Source of the DNA: Mesotoga sp. Brook.08.105.5.1
Lineage (GTDB): Bacteria > Thermotogota > Thermotogae > Petrotogales > Kosmotogaceae
Assembly (NCBI RefSeq): GCF_002752635.1
Contig: NZ_AYTW01000045.1
Coordinates: forward strand, 1-53,408
Direction: 5' to 3'
DNA length: 53,408 bases
Made by a program: the position numbers and the translations under genes. Below, piece by piece: positions 11,499 through 30,688 of this stretch. Each line of letters starts with the position of its first letter. The stretch's first letter is position 1. Below the pieces are notes generated by a model. It worked only from the letters and a program-made list of their open reading frames with translations, did not search any database and had not been told where the DNA came from.

Positions 11499-12405
11499 AT
11501 CTTTGAGTGATCTCATGTATTCCAGATAGTGAATGGATTTTCATGAAGGTCTCTATGAACTCGACGATGGATTTGGGCAGACCCGGATTTACCATGTTCA
11601 TGGTTCCAATGGATATTGCGCCTGCACCTGCCATAATGAACTCAACAGCATCTTCTCCTGAGGAGATACCTCCCATTCCAATTAAAGGAAGGTTTGCTTC
11701 TCTGCTGATTTCATAGATCATCTTAATCGCTATTGGTTTGATCGCAGGCCCTGACATTCCACCGGATAGGGCACCTAATGCAGATCTGAATCTGTTTATG
11801 TCAATCTTCATGGCTGGCACAGTATTTATCAGCGATATTGCCGATGCCCCTGCCTTTTCTGCACTTCTGGCGAAGGAAGCATCTATAGATTGGAAAGGGC
11901 TGAGTTTAGCGATCAGCGGGTATTTGCTGGTCTTGCTGCATTCAGATACGACATTGCCGATTCTCTCAGGGCTTGACCCGAAAGAAAGCCCTTCTGAATC
12001 GACGTTCGGGCAGGAAAGATTTAGTTCTATGGCGGTTGCCCCATCGATATCATTAAGTCTGTCAGCTATCTCAACAAACTCAGATACTGAATTTCCGCTT
12101 ATACTAACTATTACTGGAATTTCCAGTTTTCCATACCCGTCTTTGTAGTCTTCGATAAAACTGAGAACGCCGGGGTTTTCGAGGCCGACCGAATTTATCA
12201 TTGAGGAAGGACCCTCGAGGATTCTCAGCTGAGCGTTACCCGCCTTCGGGTTCAAAGTGATCGTCTTTGTTACCACCGCTCCGACATATTCAGATTCCAG
12301 AAGGTCAAAATACGGTTTGGACAGTCCAAAGGTCCCTGAAGAAATGATTATGGGAGTACGCAAAATGCCTATACGTCCAAGATTTGCTCTCAGATTACAT
12401 TTCAT
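11479..12405 (-). CDS. pyrD: Dihydroorotate dehydrogenase B, catalytic subunit (PyrD, class 1B)
   Basis: This FMN subunit interconverts dihydroorotate and orotate. The start taken is the ATG at 12405, giving 308 residues. It follows GAGGTT, overlaps the end of pyrK by 11 bases and begins with the family-typical MKCNL; the frame is open 12 codons further up, inside pyrK. Substrate contacts of class 1B enzymes are present: TKT (Lys47), MINSVGLENPG (Asn71), NLSCPN (catalytic Cys132, flanked by Asn129 and Asn134) and INT further on. The FMN phosphate region GGMSGPAIKP and GMGGISSGEDA is intact. Together with PyrK it would use NAD. No pyrB, pyrE or pyrF lies here, and the operon context suggests that the enzyme runs in the orotate-reducing direction. 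Confidence 0.88.
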   Translation of the reverse strand: MKCNLRANLGRIGILRTPIIISSGTFGLSKPYFDLLESEYVGAVVTKTITLNPKAGNAQLRILEGPSSMINSVGLENPGVLSFIEDYKDGYGKLEIPVIVSISGNSVSEFVEIADRLNDIDGATAIELNLSCPNVDSEGLSFGSSPERIGNVVSECSKTSKYPLIAKLSPFQSIDASFARSAEKAGASAISLINTVPAMKIDINRFRSALGALSGGMSGPAIKPIAIKMIYEISREANLPLIGMGGISSGEDAVEFIMAGAGAISIGTMNMVNPGLPKSIVEFIETFMKIHSLSGIHEITQRFIQRNS

Positions 12406-13165
12406 TCCATTCAACCTCTTCCATTTTGAAAACCGGTCCATCTAGACAGACTCGCTTGCTACCGTGTTTTGTATTGATAGTGCAGCCATAACAGACCCCG
12501 ATGCCGCATGCCATATGTGCTTCAAGAGATACCTCAACTTCTCTCTTGTAGAGAAAGGGCTCAAGCGCCTTCAACATTCTTGTTGGGCCGCAACAGTAGA
12601 ATCTGTCGTAGTTTTCAAGATCAATTTCCTTCAACGTATCAACAACGTTTCCGATGATGGGGTAAGGTCCTTTGTCAACGGTAACTAAAACTCTGTTTGC
12701 TCTCTTCTGAAATCCTTCGATGATTTCTCGAGGGATCTCCTCGGGTTTTGAGAAACCGAAAATAGTGTCCGTGTTACAGTCTGAATAAAATAGCCTTCGA
12801 GAAAGAAGATTCAGTGAAGCAATTCCGCATCCCCCACCAATCAGAAGCGATCTAGTGTTGCTAGACACGGTGAATCCATTTCCCAGCGGTCCTATGAGAT
12901 CAACAATAGATCCGGAATTGAGTTCACTCAACCATTTTGTCCCCTTTCCAATAATCTTTATGAATAGGGATAGGCTTTCACTTGAGACATCGAAGACGGA
13001 AAATGGTCTTCTCAAAATCATATCTTCTCCATAACAACCGATTTCAACAAACTGTCCGGGGAGGGTCTGTCGGGAGATATCTCTAGAATTAAGAACCAGT
13101 ACATGCCCGTCGGAACTAACCCTTTCGTTTCTTATCACTTCGCATTTTTCATTCACAACATTCAT
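12395..13165 (-). CDS. pyrK: Dihydroorotate dehydrogenase B, electron-transfer subunit (PyrK)
   Basis: A 256-residue ferredoxin-reductase-like protein that passes electrons between NAD(H) and the FMN of PyrD. It has the FAD-binding RRPFSV (residues 52-57), the nucleotide motif GGGCGIASL, and the PyrK-specific [2Fe-2S] cysteines Cys220, Cys225, Cys228 and Cys240 near the C-terminus (CGIGVCYGC and the later VCLDGPVF). It overlaps pyrC by four bases (ATGA) and pyrD by eleven, so translation of the three is probably coupled. It marks the dehydrogenase as NAD-linked, as in the orotate-fermenting clostridial enzyme. Confidence 0.92.
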   Translation of the reverse strand: MNVVNEKCEVIRNERVSSDGHVLVLNSRDISRQTLPGQFVEIGCYGEDMILRRPFSVFDVSSESLSLFIKIIGKGTKWLSELNSGSIVDLIGPLGNGFTVSSNTRSLLIGGGCGIASLNLLSRRLFYSDCNTDTIFGFSKPEEIPREIIEGFQKRANRVLVTVDKGPYPIIGNVVDTLKEIDLENYDRFYCCGPTRMLKALEPFLYKREVEVSLEAHMACGIGVCYGCTINTKHGSKRVCLDGPVFKMEEVEWNEM

Positions 13166-14379
13166 ACTGAATCTCCAATGAAGGGGTAGACTATTTTTCC
13201 AGAGGCTATGGTATACTTAACCTTCGCATCTAGTTTCTTCCCCAGGAAGGGAGTATTCTTCCCTTTTGAATACATAGAGGACTCTTCGACAATCCATGAC
13301 TCATTGGGATCAAAAAGGATGATGTCGGCTCGTTCTCCCTCTTCAAAACAAGCGGGGTTTATTCCCAAGAGATTCGAAGAATTAAATGTAAGAATCTTAG
13401 TCAATGCTTGTAGAGAGAGAAGCCCTTCACTGACAAGGGCAGTGTACGAGAGCGGAAAAAGTAGTTCTACTCCCGAAAAGCCTCTAGCAGGTACTTCAGA
13501 TGTTTTTTCTTCTAATGTGTGTGGGGCGTGATCCGAAGCAATAATATCTATCAAACCGGAGATTATTGCCCATCTGATCGCTTTTAAGTCATCAGCTGTT
13601 CTTATAGGTGGATAGACCTCATAAAAGCCGTCGGACAGCCCCTCGCTGGTTTCTATGAAGTAATGGGGACACGTTTCTATTGTGAATCTGATGTTCTTTT
13701 CTCTTGCTCGTTTGAGAAAATCAATTGAACTGGCTAGGCTGACGTGCTGAAGATGAAGCCTACCGCCGATCCTCTCGTTAAGGATGACATCCCTGCAAAT
13801 GACAGCATGCTCTGTGTTTCCCAAACTTTTGTCAAATTCCGGAATTTCGGGATGTTCGGCTACCAGGACACCTGTTTCTTTTGAAAACCATAGAACAGCG
13901 GCCATGTCGCTATTTCGATCTACGGGAAGACCGTCATTGGTGAATACTATTGCGCCGGCTTCATAAAGCTCTTTCCAGTTGTTTCGCCTGCCTGACAGGT
14001 TTTGGTTTATTGAACAGGACTGCAGAACTCTTATAACCGTATCGTTTTGAAAGGACCTGACATAATGATAGTTTTCAACTGAGTCCGGGCAGGGCATTAC
14101 ATTAGGCATGGCACACAGTGAGGTAACACCGCCGGAGGTCGCTGCCAGGACGCCGCTTTCCAGAGTTTCTTTCCACTCATACCCCGGTTGTCTCAAGTGT
14201 ACGTGGGGATCTACTATTCCAGTTATTGCAACAAGTCCTTTGGCTTCAATGATGTCTGCATCGCTGCAGTCAATTCTTGTATCTATCTTCTTTATCACAC
14301 CGTCGTCGATCAGAATGTCATAGGTTGTCCTGCTGGATCTTCTCCAATCTACGAGATTTGAATTTCTAATTAGAAGCAT
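13162..14379 (-). CDS. pyrC: Dihydroorotase (PyrC, type I)
   Basis: A zinc amidohydrolase that reversibly closes or opens dihydroorotate and N-carbamoyl-aspartate. Start at 14379 (405 residues), because GGAGG lies five bases before it; the open frame extends four codons further. The metal motif DPHVHLRQPG gives His59 and His61, and later metal ligands appear in HLQHVS and ASDHAPHT. Arg63 (of HLR) and Asn93 (of AMPN) are the pair that holds the substrate carboxylate in dihydroorotases and are absent from dihydropyrimidinases, so orotate-type rather than uracil-type substrate is favoured. GFSGVEL, typical of type I enzymes, is present. It overlaps the upstream hydrolase gene by 14 bases. Confidence 0.9.
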   Translation of the reverse strand: MLLIRNSNLVDWRRSSRTTYDILIDDGVIKKIDTRIDCSDADIIEAKGLVAITGIVDPHVHLRQPGYEWKETLESGVLAATSGGVTSLCAMPNVMPCPDSVENYHYVRSFQNDTVIRVLQSCSINQNLSGRRNNWKELYEAGAIVFTNDGLPVDRNSDMAAVLWFSKETGVLVAEHPEIPEFDKSLGNTEHAVICRDVILNERIGGRLHLQHVSLASSIDFLKRAREKNIRFTIETCPHYFIETSEGLSDGFYEVYPPIRTADDLKAIRWAIISGLIDIIASDHAPHTLEEKTSEVPARGFSGVELLFPLSYTALVSEGLLSLQALTKILTFNSSNLLGINPACFEEGERADIILFDPNESWIVEESSMYSKGKNTPFLGKKLDAKVKYTIASGKIVYPFIGDSV

Positions 14380-15592
14380 GTGAACCTCCAAAGATTTCTA
14401 GCATCGCATTAAGTAGTTTGGAGAATGAAGTTAGATCCATCGCCTCTCTTGGTGAATGACTTACTCCCGTAGGATTTGGCAGCAAGATAAGAGAAGATGA
14501 GAAATACTTCGAAACCTCCGCAATGTCGTGCCAGGCTATGCTATTCATTCTTGTAGAAGAAAGTCCCTTAACTGTCAAACTGTTTTGGAGGTATTCGAAG
14601 TAAGCGCTGTCCATTGTCGCGGGATCCATAGCGGAGAGCTCCGACGAAGAGAATTCTATAGCAGCCCCTTCGGATACGGCTCTACAATAATCTGTCAGAG
14701 AGCCTTTGAATTCTTCGAGAGAACGAACTGAGAAACCTCTTATGTCTACGGTAGTCTCGGTCTCTCCAGGAATCATATTCATTACATTTGGAGTATTAAC
14801 TAGCCTTGTTACGGTCCCAACGACCTCCTCTGAAGACATTAGCTTGCTCAACTCGCTTGCCTTTAATATGGCAGAAGTTGAAGCCAGAAGCGAGTCTCTT
14901 CTTGCCGAGAGATTCATAAGGCTCGAATGATTGGTCTCACCTTTGAAAGTGAAACTGAGTCTCCTTTGACCGGCAATCTTCTCAACAAATGCAAGATCCA
15001 AGGCTTTCTTTGATAACTCTTTTGATTGATCCACATGTATTTCGATGAATCTTGTTCCTTCTTCAACAAACGGCTTTTCAACTTGTGAAAAGCTCTGAAA
15101 ATCCGCCTTTTCCATTAGTTCAGTCAGGGATACTTTTTCCCCGATCAATGTTTCATAGTCCCCCAAAGCTTCTTCTCCCTTGAGGAAGAACACCGATCCC
15201 AACGATGCCCGGCCGAACAGTGAGGACTCTTCGCAGTTGAAGGCGCATAATTCAATACGTTCGCCCTCGGCCTTTCCTAGAAGACTCAGAAGTAGGATTC
15301 CAAATACAACGCCCGCAGTTCCGTCATATCTGCCGCCACTTGGAACCGAATCATAGTGAGAACAGAAAACTACTTTGTCATTTCTCCGATTTTCTCTCCC
15401 GCTGGAGGTCAAGATGTTTCCCATTCTATCGACATAGACTCTCTTTCCAACTTCACTCAACCTTTTCGCCAGATACTCAAGGGCAAGTCTGTTTTCCCTT
15501 GTGAAGGGAAGACGAGTAACTCCTTCATCTGTCGAGGTGAATTTCGATACCCTATCTATTTCTTCCGATACTAGATATTCGAGACCGCTCAA
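14366..15592 (-). CDS. N-carbamoyl-L-amino-acid hydrolase / ureidosuccinase-like M20 peptidase
   Basis: A metal-dependent amidohydrolase of the AllC/HyuC branch of family M20, which splits N-carbamoyl-amino acids to amino acid, ammonia and CO2. I favour a TTG start at 15592 (408 residues): AAGGAG lies six bases before it and overlaps the stop of the upstream permease. The ATG at 15622 would lie inside that gene. Metal ligands are visible: CSHYDSVPSGGRYDGTAGV has the His and the bridging Asp, FNCEES the catalytic and metal glutamates, EIHVDQ a further His, and VSHSPRE the last His. Next to PyrC its natural substrate would be carbamoyl-aspartate, giving aspartate. Allantoate or beta-ureidopropionate remain possible. 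Confidence 0.82.
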   Translation of the reverse strand: MSGLEYLVSEEIDRVSKFTSTDEGVTRLPFTRENRLALEYLAKRLSEVGKRVYVDRMGNILTSSGRENRRNDKVVFCSHYDSVPSGGRYDGTAGVVFGILLLSLLGKAEGERIELCAFNCEESSLFGRASLGSVFFLKGEEALGDYETLIGEKVSLTELMEKADFQSFSQVEKPFVEEGTRFIEIHVDQSKELSKKALDLAFVEKIAGQRRLSFTFKGETNHSSLMNLSARRDSLLASTSAILKASELSKLMSSEEVVGTVTRLVNTPNVMNMIPGETETTVDIRGFSVRSLEEFKGSLTDYCRAVSEGAAIEFSSSELSAMDPATMDSAYFEYLQNSLTVKGLSSTRMNSIAWHDIAEVSKYFSSSLILLPNPTGVSHSPREAMDLTSFSKLLNAMLEIFGGSHASN

Positions 15593-15602
15593 GCTAACTC
15601 CT

Positions 15603-16370
15603 TCACTTTGCCGCCGATTCATGCCAGAACAGCAGTTTTTCCTGCAGTTTCTTCATTCCAATATCCAGGAAGAAGCTGAGAAGACTAATTACAATGATTA
15701 CAGTCAACAGTAAAGTTATATCGTACATTTCGTTCCCGAGAATCAGAAGAAATCCAAGCCCGGCCTTTGAACCCATCATTTCTCCTATAACTGCAGCCGT
15801 AATCGACAGCACAAGGGCAACACGCAATCCAGTCATCAGATACGGCATCGAGTTCATGAGTTCAAGTTTGAACATAACTTGAAGACGACTTGCCTTCAAA
15901 ACCTTCATCAGGTTGTAGTAGTTCTTTTCAGTTGATCTTACACCGAGTATCATGTTTATCATCACAGGGAACAGAGTAACGAGAGCAATAAGAACCACTT
16001 TTGACAATATTCCAAGCCCGAACCATAAAACAAAGAGTGGGGCAAGAGAAATTTTTGGAGCAGTCTGGAATATGAGTATGTAAGGGGAGAGCGCCTTCTC
16101 GAGAATCTCTACCTTCGCAAGAACGTATCCAAGTACTATTCCAATCACCGCTCCGGAACTGAAGCCTATAGCTATCTCTTCGAGCGTTGCCAAGAAGTTC
16201 TTTTGCAAAACGGAGTTCTTGACCAACTCAATGAACTTGAAGAGAATATCTTCAGGCGGAGGAAGGATATGTGTTGGAGTATTGAAAATCGTGACCACTG
16301 CTTTCCACACAACCAATACAGCCACAAGAAATAAAAAGCTCATTAGTCTTGAATTGATCTTCTTTTTCAA
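15603..16370 (-). CDS. ABC transporter permease (SsuC/ThiX-like), second of two
   Basis: A 255-residue inner-membrane permease of the nitrate/sulfonate/pyrimidine type (BPD_transp_1 fold) with about six hydrophobic segments. The cytoplasmic coupling loop is in VRSTEKNYYNLMKVLKASRL. It starts with TTG after GGAGG. It is about half identical by eye to the permease at 18164-18946 (shared ILPPPE, IGFSSGAVIG/IGFSVGSILG, QTAPKISLAPLFVLWFGLG/QATPKVSLIPLFVIWFGLG). The two may form a heterodimeric channel with the ATPase at 18946 and the binding protein at 16400. Confidence 0.88.
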   Translation of the reverse strand: MKKKINSRLMSFLFLVAVLVVWKAVVTIFNTPTHILPPPEDILFKFIELVKNSVLQKNFLATLEEIAIGFSSGAVIGIVLGYVLAKVEILEKALSPYILIFQTAPKISLAPLFVLWFGLGILSKVVLIALVTLFPVMINMILGVRSTEKNYYNLMKVLKASRLQVMFKLELMNSMPYLMTGLRVALVLSITAAVIGEMMGSKAGLGFLLILGNEMYDITLLLTVIIVISLLSFFLDIGMKKLQEKLLFWHESAAK

Positions 16371-16399
16371 AATCCTTCCTCCTTACCCGAAGATTTAGT

Positions 16400-17365
16400 T
16401 TACAGTCTTGGTACTACGAAATCGGCCGCGTTGACATCTGTGGTTATCAGATCGTACTCTCTCATTATGTCAATAGTCTGCTGCCATCTCTCAACGTTTC
16501 CAAATCCAAATCCAAAGGCTTCGGTATCTTCGCTCTGCCAGAGGTAACCCGCATAGATCTCGGAAAGTATGTCGGCCATGTATTCCTCTCTGCCAATATA
16601 TGTTGGCGCATACTTCGCGATTGCCACTACAGTGGCTTCCTTCATGTTATCTGGATCTGAGAGATAGGCCATTACTCTGCTCAAAGCCCTTGTGAACCTA
16701 ACAGCCAGATCCCTGTTTTCATTCAGGATTTTGTCTCCGGTTACCACGACGTTTCCGAATGAAGGAAGGAACTCGTCTGACTTGAATTCATCTACTTCGA
16801 TTCCCTGATACCTTAGTTCGAAAGTTCTGAGCATCGAGAAGCAAATTGCATCTACTCTCTTGTTTACGAGAGCCGGAACGATAGCTTCGGTTCCCACAAT
16901 CTCAAGCTGGATGTCATTCAGTGAAAGCCCGTTCTTCTTCAGAAGTATCTGTAGCTGCACATAATTGGGGCTTCCATAACCTGTTATTGCCACTTTCTTC
17001 CCTTTGAGATCCTGGGGTGTTTCAATACCGCTTTCCTTAAGGAAGATAGTTGAGCCGAGTCCGTGTTGGTAGGTAGTATGAATAACATTTACAGGTATTC
17101 CCTGAGCTCTTGCCGTTATGACAGGTTCACCATTGGGGAACCCGAATTCAACATTTCCAACTGCTACGTTTCTTATGATGTCTGAGGCGCTCCCAAAAAG
17201 ATAGTCTACTTCAAGACCTTCCTCTTCAAAATAACCGAGCTCTATTCCCATGTAGATGGGAATGTAGTAAGGAACTGCGGAACCCTCAATTTGCAGGGTT
17301 ACTTTCTGGGCAAAAACAAACATGCTTACTAGAACCAATAAAAACACAAGTACTGCCTTCTTCAA
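16400..17365 (-). CDS. NMT1/THI5-like ABC substrate-binding protein
   Basis: A 321-residue periplasmic-type binding protein (SsuA/TauA/THI5 superfamily) with a signal peptide (KKAVLVFLLVLVSMFVFA, cut near Gln20). Landmarks: YYIPIYMGIELGYFEEEGLE, the NVEFGFPNGEP hinge region and DLKGKKVAITGYGSPNY. Members bind sulfonates, nitrate, or pyrimidines such as the thiamine precursor; the neighbours point to a pyrimidine or carbamoyl compound here. It begins with TTG after GAGGAGGG. It lies between the second permease and the uridine phosphorylase gene. Confidence 0.88.
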   Translation of the reverse strand: MKKAVLVFLLVLVSMFVFAQKVTLQIEGSAVPYYIPIYMGIELGYFEEEGLEVDYLFGSASDIIRNVAVGNVEFGFPNGEPVITARAQGIPVNVIHTTYQHGLGSTIFLKESGIETPQDLKGKKVAITGYGSPNYVQLQILLKKNGLSLNDIQLEIVGTEAIVPALVNKRVDAICFSMLRTFELRYQGIEVDEFKSDEFLPSFGNVVVTGDKILNENRDLAVRFTRALSRVMAYLSDPDNMKEATVVAIAKYAPTYIGREEYMADILSEIYAGYLWQSEDTEAFGFGFGNVERWQQTIDIMREYDLITTDVNAADFVVPRL

Positions 17366-17381
17366 ATCAATCCCTCCTCGT

Positions 17382-18167
17382 TCAGAGTGTTAAAAAGTCT
17401 GTTTCAAGTGCAGTTTCTATTGCACAAAGCTGAGCTGACCTGTAATCAATAAGCCATTCATCTGTCTTTCTGTTTCCATGAACTGCCAGGATATTTGCTG
17501 CCTTCATTCCCATAAGGCTTGCCAGAGTAAAGATCGTCTCGGTTTCCATATCGAAATTGATAACGCCGGCTGATGAGAGTTCTTCAGGCAAACTGGAACC
17601 AGGGATTTCAAAACCTTCAATACACCGACCCTGTCCGGCATAATAAGAGTCAACAGTAGCGCCTATACCTACGTGAGCCCTGATCCCCTTTTTCGAAGCG
17701 CTTTTGGCCAGTTCTACGACCATAAATGGATCAGCAACGGCCGGGTATTCTACTCTGACATACATTTTGGAACTTCCGCCTAGTCTTACTGCGCCGGAGT
17801 TGATTATCATATCTCCGCACTTAATGTCCTCTCTAAGCGCTCCACAACCTCCCACTCTGACAACTCTTTCTACACCAAGCGAGTGAAGTTCCACCATAAC
17901 TATTTCCGATGAACCACCTCCAATTCCGGTTGAACAAACGCCAAACTCCTTCCCTCCGAAAGTGCCGATTCCTGTTGAGAATTCTCGATTGACGGACAGA
18001 TATTCAAAGGAATCTGCCGCTTCTTCGAAGAGCTTTAGTCGGTCTGGATCACCTGGAAGGAAGAACAGCTTCGGAACCTTTGAATCTATGCTCAACTTCA
18101 GATGCGGAAGTTTACCGTTTTCGATGGGATTGCTCGCTGTTGGTTTTCTGAATCCTTCATTCATCAC
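17382..18167 (-). CDS. udp: Uridine phosphorylase
   Basis: A 261-residue nucleoside phosphorylase that converts uridine and phosphate to uracil and ribose-1-phosphate. It shows FLPGDPDRLKLF, CSTGIGGGSSEIVMVEL, VRVGGCGAL and NFDMETETIF. It keeps AGQGR, the Gln-x-Arg pair that recognises the uracil ring in uridine phosphorylases, at the place where its paralogue at 2284-3096 has lost it. This makes a pyrimidine nucleoside the likely substrate and supports a pyrimidine role for the operon. It overlaps the first permease gene by four bases. Confidence 0.87.
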   Translation of the reverse strand: MMNEGFRKPTASNPIENGKLPHLKLSIDSKVPKLFFLPGDPDRLKLFEEAADSFEYLSVNREFSTGIGTFGGKEFGVCSTGIGGGSSEIVMVELHSLGVERVVRVGGCGALREDIKCGDMIINSGAVRLGGSSKMYVRVEYPAVADPFMVVELAKSASKKGIRAHVGIGATVDSYYAGQGRCIEGFEIPGSSLPEELSSAGVINFDMETETIFTLASLMGMKAANILAVHGNRKTDEWLIDYRSAQLCAIETALETDFLTL

Positions 18168-18946
18168 GTTCCCTCCGTGAAAGCCAATTTCGACTCATGC
18201 CAGAACAAGAGTTTCTTTTCTATAAGCTCAATGCTCCAGTAGAGAATTAATCCCAGGAAAGTGGTAGCAATTATTGACGCCATCAGAAGATTTGCGTCAT
18301 ACAGAGAACTGCCGTAAACGAGCAGATAACCGAAGCCTCTGTCTCCAGCCATCCATTCTGAGACTATTGCTCCTATTATTGATTGCACCATCGCGATCTT
18401 GAGTCCTGCCATGATTAAGGGAGTGGCCATCGGGAGTCTCATCTTGAGAGTTGCCTGGCGTTCCGATGCTCCGAGAATTGTCATTAAGTTCTCGTAGTCC
18501 TCCGGGACAGATCTAAGTCCCAAGATTGTGTTTATCATCACCGGAAAGAAAGCTGAAAGAACTATGAGCAATAGCTTTGACGGCATCCCGAGTCCGAACC
18601 AAATAACAAAGAGAGGAATGAGAGATACTTTTGGTGTGGCCTGAATAAGCATGACATATGGTGAGATTACTTCTTCAAAGGTTCTTGATTTCGCTGAGAA
18701 GTATCCGGCCGCGAAGCCCAGAATAGATCCAACGGAGAAGCCAATCAGTATCGTATACAGGGTTACCCAGCCTTCTCTAATGAAAGTGCCGTCTGCAACA
18801 AGAGAGATAAACCTCTGTCCTACAGCCTCTGGAGGTGGAAGGATAAATCCCGGAACATCTCTGATGATTATGTATCCCTTCCAAAAACCCAGGAAGAGAA
18901 CCAGGAAAAGAATCGAGATTATTGCTATCAAGACTTTCCTGTTCAT
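18164..18946 (-). CDS. ABC transporter permease (SsuC/ThiX-like), first of two
   Basis: A 260-residue membrane permease, paralogue of the one at 15603-16370. It has a hydrophobic N-terminal segment (VLIAIISILFLVLFLGFWKG), the QATPKVSLIPLFVIWFGLG core and a coupling loop in VPEDYENLMTILGASERQ. Its ATG shares one base with the stop codon of the ATPase gene, so the two are translationally coupled. Confidence 0.9.
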   Translation of the reverse strand: MNRKVLIAIISILFLVLFLGFWKGYIIIRDVPGFILPPPEAVGQRFISLVADGTFIREGWVTLYTILIGFSVGSILGFAAGYFSAKSRTFEEVISPYVMLIQATPKVSLIPLFVIWFGLGMPSKLLLIVLSAFFPVMINTILGLRSVPEDYENLMTILGASERQATLKMRLPMATPLIMAGLKIAMVQSIIGAIVSEWMAGDRGFGYLLVYGSSLYDANLLMASIIATTFLGLILYWSIELIEKKLLFWHESKLAFTEGT

Positions 18947-19710
18947 TATTTGAGCATCTCCCTTAGCTCTTTGACGTAGGAGTAAAATTCCGGAGTAAGT
19001 TTTGAATCTTCATTTCGCGGTCTAGGCAATTCAACCTTCATATCCGCGACAACTCTGCCGGGCTTCGTACCCATGACGATTATCCTGTCTGAAAGATACA
19101 CTGCTTCGCTAATACTGTGAGTCACAAAGATCACTGTCTTTCTGGTCGATTCCCATATTTCGAGGAGAACGTTGTTCAGATTGTCTCTGGTTATTGCGTC
19201 AAGAGCTCCAAAAGGTTCGTCCATAAGTAGTATTGGAGGATTGTAGGACAGGGCTCTCACAATAGCCACACGCTGTCTCATTCCACCTGAAAGCTGTCTT
19301 GGGTAGGAATTTTCAAAACCCAGAAGCTTCGCGAGTTTGAAAAGATTCCTGACATTGCTTTCATCTGCTTTCTCCTTGTTACCCATGATTTCGAATGGAA
19401 AGAGAGCGTTTTCTATTGCTGTTCTCCAGGGCAAAAGAACGGAATCCTGGAATACGAACCCAAAGGGAGGGGTCTTACGATTTTCTTTCTCCGTAATCTC
19501 CACCGTTCCAGAACTTGCCTTAAGAAGTCCCGAGACAATCTTTAGCAGTGTTGATTTTCCACAGCCCGAGGGTCCCAGCAGTGAGACGAACTCACCTCTG
19601 TTGACTGTAAATGAAACATCATCCAGTGCAACAAATTCCTTTCTGTCCTTTTTTGTCCCGCTCGAGAAGACCCTTCCAACGTTACTTACAATTACCACCT
19701 GTTCACTCAT
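18946..19710 (-). CDS. ABC transporter ATPase (SsuB/TauB-like)
   Basis: A 254-residue ATPase that energises the importer. Walker A GPSGCGKST (residues 46-54), Q-loop FQDSVLLPW, signature LSGGMRQR (140-147), Walker B ILLMDEPFGALD and the switch His in VTHSISEAV are all intact. It is the second gene of the operon, eight bases after the IclR regulator gene. Confidence 0.93.
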   Translation of the reverse strand: MSEQVVIVSNVGRVFSSGTKKDRKEFVALDDVSFTVNRGEFVSLLGPSGCGKSTLLKIVSGLLKASSGTVEITEKENRKTPPFGFVFQDSVLLPWRTAIENALFPFEIMGNKEKADESNVRNLFKLAKLLGFENSYPRQLSGGMRQRVAIVRALSYNPPILLMDEPFGALDAITRDNLNNVLLEIWESTRKTVIFVTHSISEAVYLSDRIIVMGTKPGRVVADMKVELPRPRNEDSKLTPEFYSYVKELREMLK

Positions 19711-19718
19711 GTCAACCT

Positions 19719-20462
19719 CTAGAAAGTGTATTTGCTGATGTCCACAGCAGTCTTTTTTAGATTGGCAACAATTTCCTCATTTATTCTCTTTGTACTGAAT
19801 CTCTCTTTCGGCGCAATCGCAGTTATACTGGCGACAACGCTCCCTGCAGAATCGAAAACAGGCACTGAGACAGCTCTTAGTCCCGGCTCAAATTCCTCGT
19901 CGCAGAAAGCAAAGCCTTCTTGCCTAACTCTTTCTAGACGAGCCTTATAATCCTCTACCGGACAAGTCTCGATTTCAGGGTCATTAATAACGTGAGATTT
20001 ACATATTAGGTCTAGCGCTCTTTCCTTGTCAATATTTGCGGCAATGGCCAACCCGGCAGCCGTGCAATGAACAGGAAGATAAACGCCAGATCTGGCCCTG
20101 AAACTGAAGACTCTGTCGCTTTCAACAGTCAACACGGAGGTTACCCCGTTTTCCGTAAGCTCACTTAGGAAGACCGTTTCATTAATCTTGTCTTTCAGCT
20201 CAACAAGACAATTCTTAAGGTTGACTACATTCATCTTTCTAGAGATCTCATTTACCAGGGGTATTATTCTTGGGCTAAATCTGTAGCGTTTGGCCTCTTC
20301 AAACTTAGTCAAGACTTCGCAGTCTACAAGATCGTTAAGTATTCGGTGAGAGGAGGACATAGGGAAACCGGATTTTCCCGACGCTTCCTGAACCGTTGTT
20401 CCGCTACTATCAGAATTGGCAACGATTTCGATCATTCTTAGCACTTTCTGGAGATAAGTCAT
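19719..20462 (-). CDS. IclR-family transcriptional regulator
   Basis: A 247-residue regulator, the first gene of the ten-gene operon. The N-terminal winged helix (about residues 1-70) contains GTTVQEASGKSGFPMSSSHR. The C-terminal effector domain carries the family's YLPVHCTAAGLAIAA and GFAFCDEEFEPGLRAVSVPV patterns. IclR proteins mostly control catabolic genes and respond to small aromatic or organic acids, which fits orotate or a related acid as inducer. GAGGTGG precedes the ATG by three bases. A palindrome within the upstream promoter is the likely autoregulatory operator. Confidence 0.92.
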   Translation of the reverse strand: MTYLQKVLRMIEIVANSDSSGTTVQEASGKSGFPMSSSHRILNDLVDCEVLTKFEEAKRYRFSPRIIPLVNEISRKMNVVNLKNCLVELKDKINETVFLSELTENGVTSVLTVESDRVFSFRARSGVYLPVHCTAAGLAIAANIDKERALDLICKSHVINDPEIETCPVEDYKARLERVRQEGFAFCDEEFEPGLRAVSVPVFDSAGSVVASITAIAPKERFSTKRINEEIVANLKKTAVDISKYTF

Positions 20463-20477
20463 ATTCCACCTCGCGGA

Positions 20478-20506
20478 ATAGTAATTCTGCTAAACAGAAT
20501 TATCAA
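20478..20506 (-). promoter_or_regulatory. Promoter of the IclR/pyrimidine operon with operator in the spacer
   Basis: On the minus strand TTGATA (20506-20501) and TACTAT (20483-20478) are separated by exactly 17 bases. Most of that spacer is a perfect 8-bp inverted repeat, TAATTCTG-N5-CAGAATTA on the plus strand (20482-20502). A protein bound there would cover the promoter. The start codon is 16 bases beyond the -10 box, so the leader is very short. Binding by the IclR protein is inferred. Confidence 0.65.
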
Positions 20507-20644
20507 CATTATTCTACACGGCCACCGTCATATCACCCAACGTTCCCTGAAGTGTTTATGGTTGATCAGAGATAATTATGCTCGATTAATGGTTGCAATC
20601 TTATGAATTCTTAATTTTTTGACTTATTAGGATGATTCGAAATG

Positions 20645-28026: not shown

Positions 28027-28800
28027 CTATTCAACAGAGACGCTTGCGTACAGTATCGAGCTATTTCCATCGCTTTCAACCGGGCTAGAGAATCCGAATT
28101 CTATTAGAGAGACTCCTCTTTTTAGGGCTTCGAAATCGAATGACTGCTTCCCGGTCTCAATGCCTGTCACTGTAAAGTTTGAAATGTCACCCGGAGAGGA
28201 TTGGCTCTTAGAAGGATCGATGTACCTGTTAGCTATGAGTCTCAGGATTTCACCATTGCTCTGTATGCTCCATAAAAATCCGGCAGAAGAATCTTCCTCA
28301 ACGGTCACTGAGAATAGATCACCCGGGTTTACGGAACCCGAAGAACTGCCAAGGACCGTTACATAATCGGGAATACACTCGCTTAGAGTTCTGTCATCCA
28401 CTTCTACATTGAATACCCTTATGTCAACAGCTTTTTCTTCGCCTTCCCATTCTCTGTAGAGCTTGAAAATGACTACAAAGCTTCCCAAGGATTCGGGACT
28501 GAATAATCAGGTTACTGTCGAACCGCCTCCTTGGACGGCGTTTTCAGATTGGTCAACGGAAACTTCTTTCGAAAACAGCGAAAACGCGTTGGCTTTTGAT
28601 GGATAGTAATGCCATGTATAGCCAGTCGAAGCGTTCTCCTCCAGTTGGACTTTCAGCCGTTGCTCATAGCTGACCCTGTTTATCACAACCGGGATCTCTG
28701 ATTCTCCCGAATTTCCGATTCCGGCAAGAGGAGTTCCATAGAAAGCCAGGAAGACAATCGTCATTATGAAAGAGATTTTGTAATGGTTTTTAAAAGTCAT
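28027..28800 (-). pseudogene. Two-domain chagasin-type (I42) protease inhibitor gene with in-frame stop
   Basis: One reading frame from the ATG at 28800 (AGGAGG seven bases before it) to 28027, broken by a single TGA at 28509-28507. The first 97 residues have a signal peptide (ISFIMTIVFLAFYGTPLAG) and the first loops of an I42 cysteine-protease inhibitor: ENASTGYTW and GGG. Directly after the stop, in the same frame, come FVVIFKLYREWEGEE, which is the third (RPWE-like) loop of that domain, and then a second domain with EEDSSAGFLW and a final strand ending VSVE. So the stop divides domain 1. Without it the protein would be 257 residues. A TTG at 28488 could restart the second half, but no ribosome site is seen. 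It may be a true nonsense mutation, read-through, or a sequencing error. Confidence 0.8.
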
Positions 28801-29108
28801 AATTACCTCCTACTATGCTCCTGTTGCAAAACCTTTATGCAAAGATTAGACGATCTCAGAAATAAAGGATCAAAAGAAAAAGGGTATTCAGGTAAGATGT
28901 CACCGCTCTAAAGTAAGTCCCTCCGAATTCATGGTTAATTGTCGGCGGAACGGCCGGAATTCAATAGCGACAACTCCTTTATGACAACGGCTTATACATC
29001 TAATGCGGCTTTCTCGTCATTCCATCGGATAATGTGGTTTTTTAGCACTCAACTAATCAATCATTCGTGTTAATATTTCTTAATGATATAAAAAAGGAGG
29101 GGAAGTAA
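28801..29108. other. Divergent intergenic region
   Basis: 308 bases between the inhibitor gene and the heliorhodopsin gene, with no open frame of interest. GAATTC occurs at 28926 and 28956 in a GC-rich stretch. The last 60 bases before the heliorhodopsin gene are very AT-rich (TTAATATTTCTTAATGATATAA) and probably hold its promoter. AAAAAGGAGGGG then serves as ribosome site. Confidence 0.45.
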
Positions 29109-29874
29109 ATGGAATCCGCCTATAAAAAGCTTCGTATCTACAACCTAATAATGGGTTTTTTGCACCTTGTACAGGGAATCATTATGCTCATAGTCAGTAA
29201 TGATTCTGCTTTGACGATTACGAGAAACTACCTGGAGTTCGACAGGGAGATAATGAGGCTTGTTCCCGCAACGGAGAACTTCATGGATTTGAAGATGGGG
29301 CCTTTCATAGCAAGTTTTCTCTTCATGTCCGCCATAGCGCATTTAATAGTCTCAACCTTTGGTTTTGGGTGGTACGCAAGAAATCTTCAGAGAGGGATTA
29401 ACTATGCCAGATGGTACGAGTATTCCATCAGTTCTTCCGTGATGATTGTTGCCATCGCAATGTTCTCGGGAATGTTGGACATAGTCAGCCTCATGCTCCT
29501 CTTCACTGTTAACGCGCTCATGAATCTCTTTGGACTTATGATGGAACTTCACAATCAGACAACCGAAAGGACAAACTGGACGTCCTTCATTTTCGGCTGT
29601 ATAGCCGGGGCGGTTACCTGGATAGCTGTCTTCATCTACTTGTTCACATCTCTTGGAAAGGCGAATGTTGAGTTCCCGTCTTTTGTCTATGCAATTCTCA
29701 TTACTTTCCTCGTCTTCTTCAACAGTTTTGCTATAAACATGTTTCTTCAGTACAAGAAGATCGGTCCTTGGAAGAACTATCTTTTCGGAGAGACTTATGT
29801 ATGTTCTTCTCAGCCTTGTCGCTAAGAGTGTACTTGCGTGGCAGGTTTTTGCCGGAATGCTCAGGCCAGTTTGA
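29109..29874 (+). pseudogene. Heliorhodopsin, frameshifted by a 4-bp duplication before the last helix
   Basis: Residues 1-230 are a seven-helix-type membrane protein with heliorhodopsin hallmarks: ARWYEYSISSSVM (Glu104 at the counterion place), then MMELHNQ and NSFAINMFLQYKKIGPW. As read, it stops at 29825 with CSSQPCR. In the +1 frame the sequence continues YVLLSLVAKSVLAWQVFAG to a TGA at 29872-29874, the conserved end of helix 7 with the retinal lysine. The frames are separated by TATGTATG at 29796-29803; removing one TATG restores a 253-residue protein. Then Glu104 and Lys238 are 134 residues apart, as are Glu107 and Lys241 in heliorhodopsin 48C12. AGGAGGGG precedes the ATG. As sequenced, it cannot bind retinal covalently. 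Confidence 0.85.
29796..29803 (+). repeat. Tandem TATG duplication disrupting heliorhodopsin
   Basis: Two direct copies of TATG. Deleting one copy rejoins the reading frame of the conserved helix-7 end. Two copies is too few for an efficient slipped-strand switch, so a single duplication event or an assembly error is more likely than phase variation. Confidence 0.7.
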
Positions 29875-29950: not shown

Positions 29951-30688
29951 ATGCCAAATCTCTACTTTTACGCCGGTTCGGCCAATCCGGAGCTGTACGA
30001 GCTTCAGAATGAATTGATCGACCCGGAAAGGAAAATCGAGAAGGTCATGCAGGAGTTCTGCGATTTCGATGGCAGTGTAATTGTCGATGTTGGGGCAGGA
30101 TCAGGCTTCCACTCGCATATGTACGCCGGCACTGCCTCTGTGGTCTACGCCGTGGAACCGGATTCCGGAATGCTAAGACAATTGATTTCAAGGCAAGCCC
30201 GTGACTTCAGATCGAACTTCTCTGTGGTTAAGGGATTTGCCGAGGATCTACCCTTGAAATCTGATCTGGCAGATATCGTGCACGCGAGACTTGCGTATTT
30301 CTTTGGTCCGCCTGTGAAATACACCGGGAGTTGCGAAGAGGGGATTGAAGAAGTCAAGAGGGTACTGAAGACCGACGGGCATTTCTTCAATATTCAGAAC
30401 AATTACTCTTCCGGCCAGTATGCGGATTTCCTCAAGCTCTCATACGGTCGGGATCTGAAAAGCCTCCAAAAAGAGATTTCCGAATACTTCTTATCAAAGG
30501 GCTTCTTAGAAAGGGTTGTAAGGACGAAATGGAGAGCAAAAAACCGTGAGGAAATTGAAAAGGCTCTTACGCTCGAATTCCCAATCGAGAAGGTGGGGCA
30601 AATTATGAAAGCCATCTCCGGCAACGAGTTCTCACACGACTTTTCAATATTCATCTTCAGGAAAACATCCAGCGGCGAAAATGGTTAG
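29951..30688 (+). CDS. SAM-dependent class I methyltransferase
   Basis: A 245-residue cytosolic methyltransferase. Motif I is VIVDVGAGSGFHSH (about residues 43-56), the acidic end of strand beta2 is VEPDSGML and motif II/III is FAEDLPLKSDLADIVHARLA, the Methyltransf_11 pattern. The substrate is unknown. It starts after CAGGAGGGCATCG and lies 76 bases beyond the restored end of the heliorhodopsin gene on the same strand, so the two may be cotranscribed. Confidence 0.8.
   Translation: MPNLYFYAGSANPELYELQNELIDPERKIEKVMQEFCDFDGSVIVDVGAGSGFHSHMYAGTASVVYAVEPDSGMLRQLISRQARDFRSNFSVVKGFAEDLPLKSDLADIVHARLAYFFGPPVKYTGSCEEGIEEVKRVLKTDGHFFNIQNNYSSGQYADFLKLSYGRDLKSLQKEISEYFLSKGFLERVVRTKWRAKNREEIEKALTLEFPIEKVGQIMKAISGNEFSHDFSIFIFRKTSSGENG

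Follow-up and report, generated by a model that had tools for sequence, protein, structure and literature searches.

A heliorhodopsin gene split between two reading frames

The window analysed here is one whole contig (C45; 53,408 nucleotides) of the 2.99-Mb draft genome of Mesotoga sp. Brook.08.105.5.1, which is assembled in 61 contigs. On its forward strand, an open reading frame (ORF) at positions 29109-29825, with a TAA stop at 29823-29825, encodes a protein of 238 amino acids that corresponds to helices 1 to 6 of a heliorhodopsin followed by a foreign ten-residue end (TYVCSSQPCR). A putative Shine-Dalgarno-type site (AAGGAGGGGA, 29095-29104, same strand), recognized from its sequence, precedes the start codon. 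Residues 8-230 of this protein matched positions 1-222 of the Pfam Heliorhodopsin profile (PF18761) with an E value of 6.4e-89 and 297.9 bits, and the counter-ion glutamate of helix 3 is present as Glu104 in the motif ARWYEY, where it is invariant in our alignment. The displaced C-terminal part of the gene is found at 29797-29874 on the same strand, where helix 7 with the retinal lysine (AKS), MYVLLSLVAKSVLAWQVFAGMLRPV and the original TGA stop are encoded in another frame. In that frame, a match at 29788-29862 to profile positions 219-242 reached 29.9 bits (E = 7.1e-7), and both parts thus exceed the curated cut-off of 26.7, with scores far beyond chance, while being adjacent and in profile order. 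A sequence-only reading of this locus had described just such a gene, with helices 1 to 6 in one frame and the helix-7 end with its AK lysine in another, and the profile searches bore out both statements. Its assignment of the tail to heliorhodopsin was also correct, since the intact genes of relatives include the tail, which is 96% identical to residues 230-254 of the protein from the congeneric genome G001.

The gene is flanked by a divergent gene for an I42 (chagasin-like) peptidase inhibitor (28027-28800, reverse strand), which carries Pfam PF09394 in both of its halves and is broken by a TGG to TGA change at 28507-28509 (codon 98), and downstream by an intact gene for a class-I methyltransferase (Pfam Methyltransf_11; 29951-30688, forward strand). 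In G001 and G009 the heliorhodopsin gene occupies the corresponding position, next to the genes for the I42 inhibitor and the methyltransferase, and the divergent heliorhodopsin/I42 pair is also found in G006.

An inherited TATG pair beside a net one-base change

To locate the break, we aligned the gene with its relatives, as the sequence-only reading had advised. Intact heliorhodopsins of 254 residues are encoded in five of the nine other genomes of the genus (G001, G003, G006, G007 and G009), and the genes of G001 and G009 are 90% identical to that of the window at the DNA level. The heliorhodopsins of G001, G009, Kosmotogaceae bacterium UBA1373 and Thermotogales bacterium Thermo_02 show 82-97% protein identity; their genes encode 254 residues in one frame and carry AGT or AAC/AAT as codon 229, whereas the window has ACTT at this place (29793-29796, forward strand). 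More precisely, G001 and G009 read GAA AGT ATG TAT GTT CTT, versus GAG ACTT ATG TAT GTT CTT in the window, and AGT is also the codon of G006. This replacement adds a net one base and is the only net frame change that the alignment places in the gene; it is also the only uncompensated frame change inside any ORF across the 21-kb part of the window collinear with G009. It could be a one-base insertion accompanied by a substitution, or one compound change or error, and it sits outside any homopolymer run, so that it is not a homopolymer miscall.

The sequence-only reading had instead blamed a TATG duplication. The tandem pair that it saw does exist (TATGTATG, 29796-29803, forward strand), but an identical pair is present in the two nearest intact relatives, G001 and G009, where it is read in frame as part of Ser-Met-Tyr-Val. 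TATGTATG is therefore ancestral and was inherited, and it is not the lesion. That reading had also relied on the observation that removing one TATG restores exactly the Glu-Lys distance of heliorhodopsin 48C12. The arithmetic is right, since the distance becomes 134 as in 48C12-type chains (E107 and K241 in our alignment), but it is 135 in all five intact congeners, so the match to 48C12 is a coincidence and we rejected it as proof of this repair. Such a repair would moreover yield Glu-Thr-Tyr-Val and a protein of 253 residues, versus 254 in every intact congener.

The same comparison bears on whether the gene might still be usable, through programmed +1 frameshifting or through phase variation at the TATG repeat. 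A one-base shift would suffice, and a short tandem repeat adjoins the site. However, no shift is needed in the intact relatives, of which the two nearest share both TATG copies; no alternative TATG copy number was seen, and, as the lesion is missing from the relatives, there is no conserved slippery signal. We therefore hold this explanation to be extremely unlikely. As for the strain-level on/off variation envisaged by the sequence-only reading, the actual change is from AGT to ACTT and two TATG copies are found in the broken window as well as in intact G001 and G009, so that phase variation by copy number finds no support.

A recent mutation or an error of the draft assembly

Recent decay and an assembly error, the two other explanations offered by the sequence-only reading, are both sensible. 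Comparisons of the window gene with G009 (dS 0.50, dN/dS 0.041) and with G001 (dS 0.56, dN/dS 0.030) show that strong selection acted on the gene right up to the tip of this branch. Such dN/dS values of 0.03-0.04 rule out an old pseudogene, so that the break must be either very recent or an error of assembly. Only three amino acid replacements (V4A, F79L and T250M) are unique to the window, all at sites that are invariant in the other five proteins.

A break at the tip of a branch is also the appearance expected if the gene of the strain is intact and the draft contig is simply wrong at 29793-29796. The division of the draft into 61 contigs and the high conservation of the rest of the gene are both compatible with this explanation, as is the rarity of broken copies: the Schiff-base lysine is in frame, with no internal stop, in all 80 heliorhodopsin loci fetched from other, named genomes (0 broken). 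Several observations speak against it, however. A substitution combined with an insertion outside any homopolymer run was found, the lesion in the adjoining I42 gene is a substitution and not an indel, and frame-broken genes show no clear excess over G001. Concerning this last point, disabled orthologues were sampled in both directions, giving 8 of 103 G001 genes disabled in the present genome (G000) versus 6 of 100 G000 genes disabled in G001 (2 contigs), rates that are about the same but rough, because spurious ORFs account for part of the breaks. A general frameshifting of the draft assembly was rejected on these counts.

The I42 gene provides a further argument. An intact copy of 257 amino acids exists in G009, whereas frameshifts have disabled the copy of G001, a different kind of lesion from the nonsense mutation in the window. 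Gene loss thus recurs at the heliorhodopsin/I42 locus, which favours a real mutation. Furthermore, no heliorhodopsin was found in G004, a genome that is 98% complete, showing that its loss is tolerated within the genus. Weighing these observations, we think that a heliorhodopsin gene inherited within the genus was very recently inactivated by a small mutation in this genome (probability of roughly 0.66), and we infer that the living strain carries it. A sequencing or assembly error in the draft is the less likely explanation, although it deserves to be kept in mind.

The nearest genome, G002, is silent on the allele: it is 93% identical downstream, but its contigs C361 and C210 end at the equivalents of positions 28410 and 29949, exactly around the heliorhodopsin and I42 genes (loci L109 and L108). 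No other copy of the broken allele was found among the viral contigs searched.

Predicted product, relatives and genomic context

If the contig is right, the change of AGT (Ser229) to ACTT would put the final 25 codons into the wrong frame and the ribosome would stop at 29823, within the former helix 7, giving a product of six helices that would lack the Schiff-base lysine and be unable to hold retinal. Structure models were of only moderate confidence (mean pLDDT 73-74 for the window ORF and for the intact relative L011). In the L011 model, helix 7 spans residues 224-250; codon 229, where the frame is lost, thus falls within the first turns of this helix, ten residues before Lys239. The window ORF was modelled with six confident helices, and not with the seven membrane helices of a heliorhodopsin in one polypeptide; its residues 226-238 have a pLDDT under 50, and the helix-7 Schiff-base lysine is absent from this ORF, being encoded only in the displaced frame. 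In rhodopsins in general, the Schiff base cannot form without the lysine. Considering that the break precedes the lysine in helix 7, the main product presumably cannot bind retinal and would be dead.

Another conceivable explanation is that helices 1 to 6 and a helix-7 peptide of 25 amino acids, started at the ATG at 29797, are made separately and assemble together with retinal. Bacteriorhodopsin that has been split is able to reassemble. The tail does open with an in-frame ATG preceded by GGAGAG at good spacing, and the peptide is nearly unchanged (96% identity to G001). Nevertheless, about 9% of all ATGs in a sample of the genome have such an upstream ribosome-site core, and this ATG is merely the ancestral Met230; the cut falls inside helix 7 and not in a loop, and the tail carries T250M at a site that is invariant in relatives. 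A functional split protein thus appears very improbable, and loss of function through a recent mutation stays our preferred reading.

The sequence-only reading found a light-binding protein unexpected in such an organism. This surprise was unwarranted given the intact genes of five of nine congeneric genomes and the heliorhodopsin of Mesotoga infera, which belongs to the same genus and family, has been expressed and purified with retinal and shows absorption at 539 nm (Kim et al. 2021, PMC7807009). The M. infera gene is intact, whereas that of the window lacks an in-frame helix-7 lysine. The proteins of Thermoplasmatales archaeon SG8-52-1 (PDB 6is6, 7u55; E = 4e-80) and 48C12 (6su3, 6su4; E = 4e-58) are full-length homologues of the intact relative, and these too are intact, unlike the window gene. 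Heliorhodopsin is thus already known in this anaerobic lineage, and the broken allele adds one more case to an ordinary class of events, in which a single lineage loses a gene already known in its genus; little turns on it by itself. Together with its intact, near-identical relatives, this natural null allele could be of use in studying the role of heliorhodopsin in an anaerobe in whose genome no phytoene synthase was found (the controls of this search worked). Considering this absence, the organism would need an external source of retinal. A search with PF15461 (beta-carotene dioxygenase) gave no match, nor did its control, so that absence of this enzyme is not thereby shown. The record on the TATG repeat is also corrected, in that it is not a switch.

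In a phylogenetic tree, the heliorhodopsins of the genus form one clade with full support, while their relation to those of the sister genus (G010 and G014) is weakly resolved, so that the family may have acquired the gene either once or twice. Within the genus, the gene is placed elsewhere in G007 (L112), beside an isochorismatase gene, and in G003 (L113), beside MFS and FMN-reductase genes, so that it moves and has no strict partner gene. I42 is moreover a multicopy family in these genomes, so that its pairing with heliorhodopsin does not argue strongly for a functional link.

Elsewhere in the window, a block of about 9.1 kb at approximately 11500-20640 has no counterpart at the corresponding position in G001 and G009, in which its two flanks join directly. 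Its genes encode a dihydroorotate dehydrogenase-like protein, an amidohydrolase, an M20 peptidase, an NMT1-type ABC transporter, a phosphorylase and an IclR regulator, and the block is probably an accessory island for nucleobase or pyrimidine catabolism.
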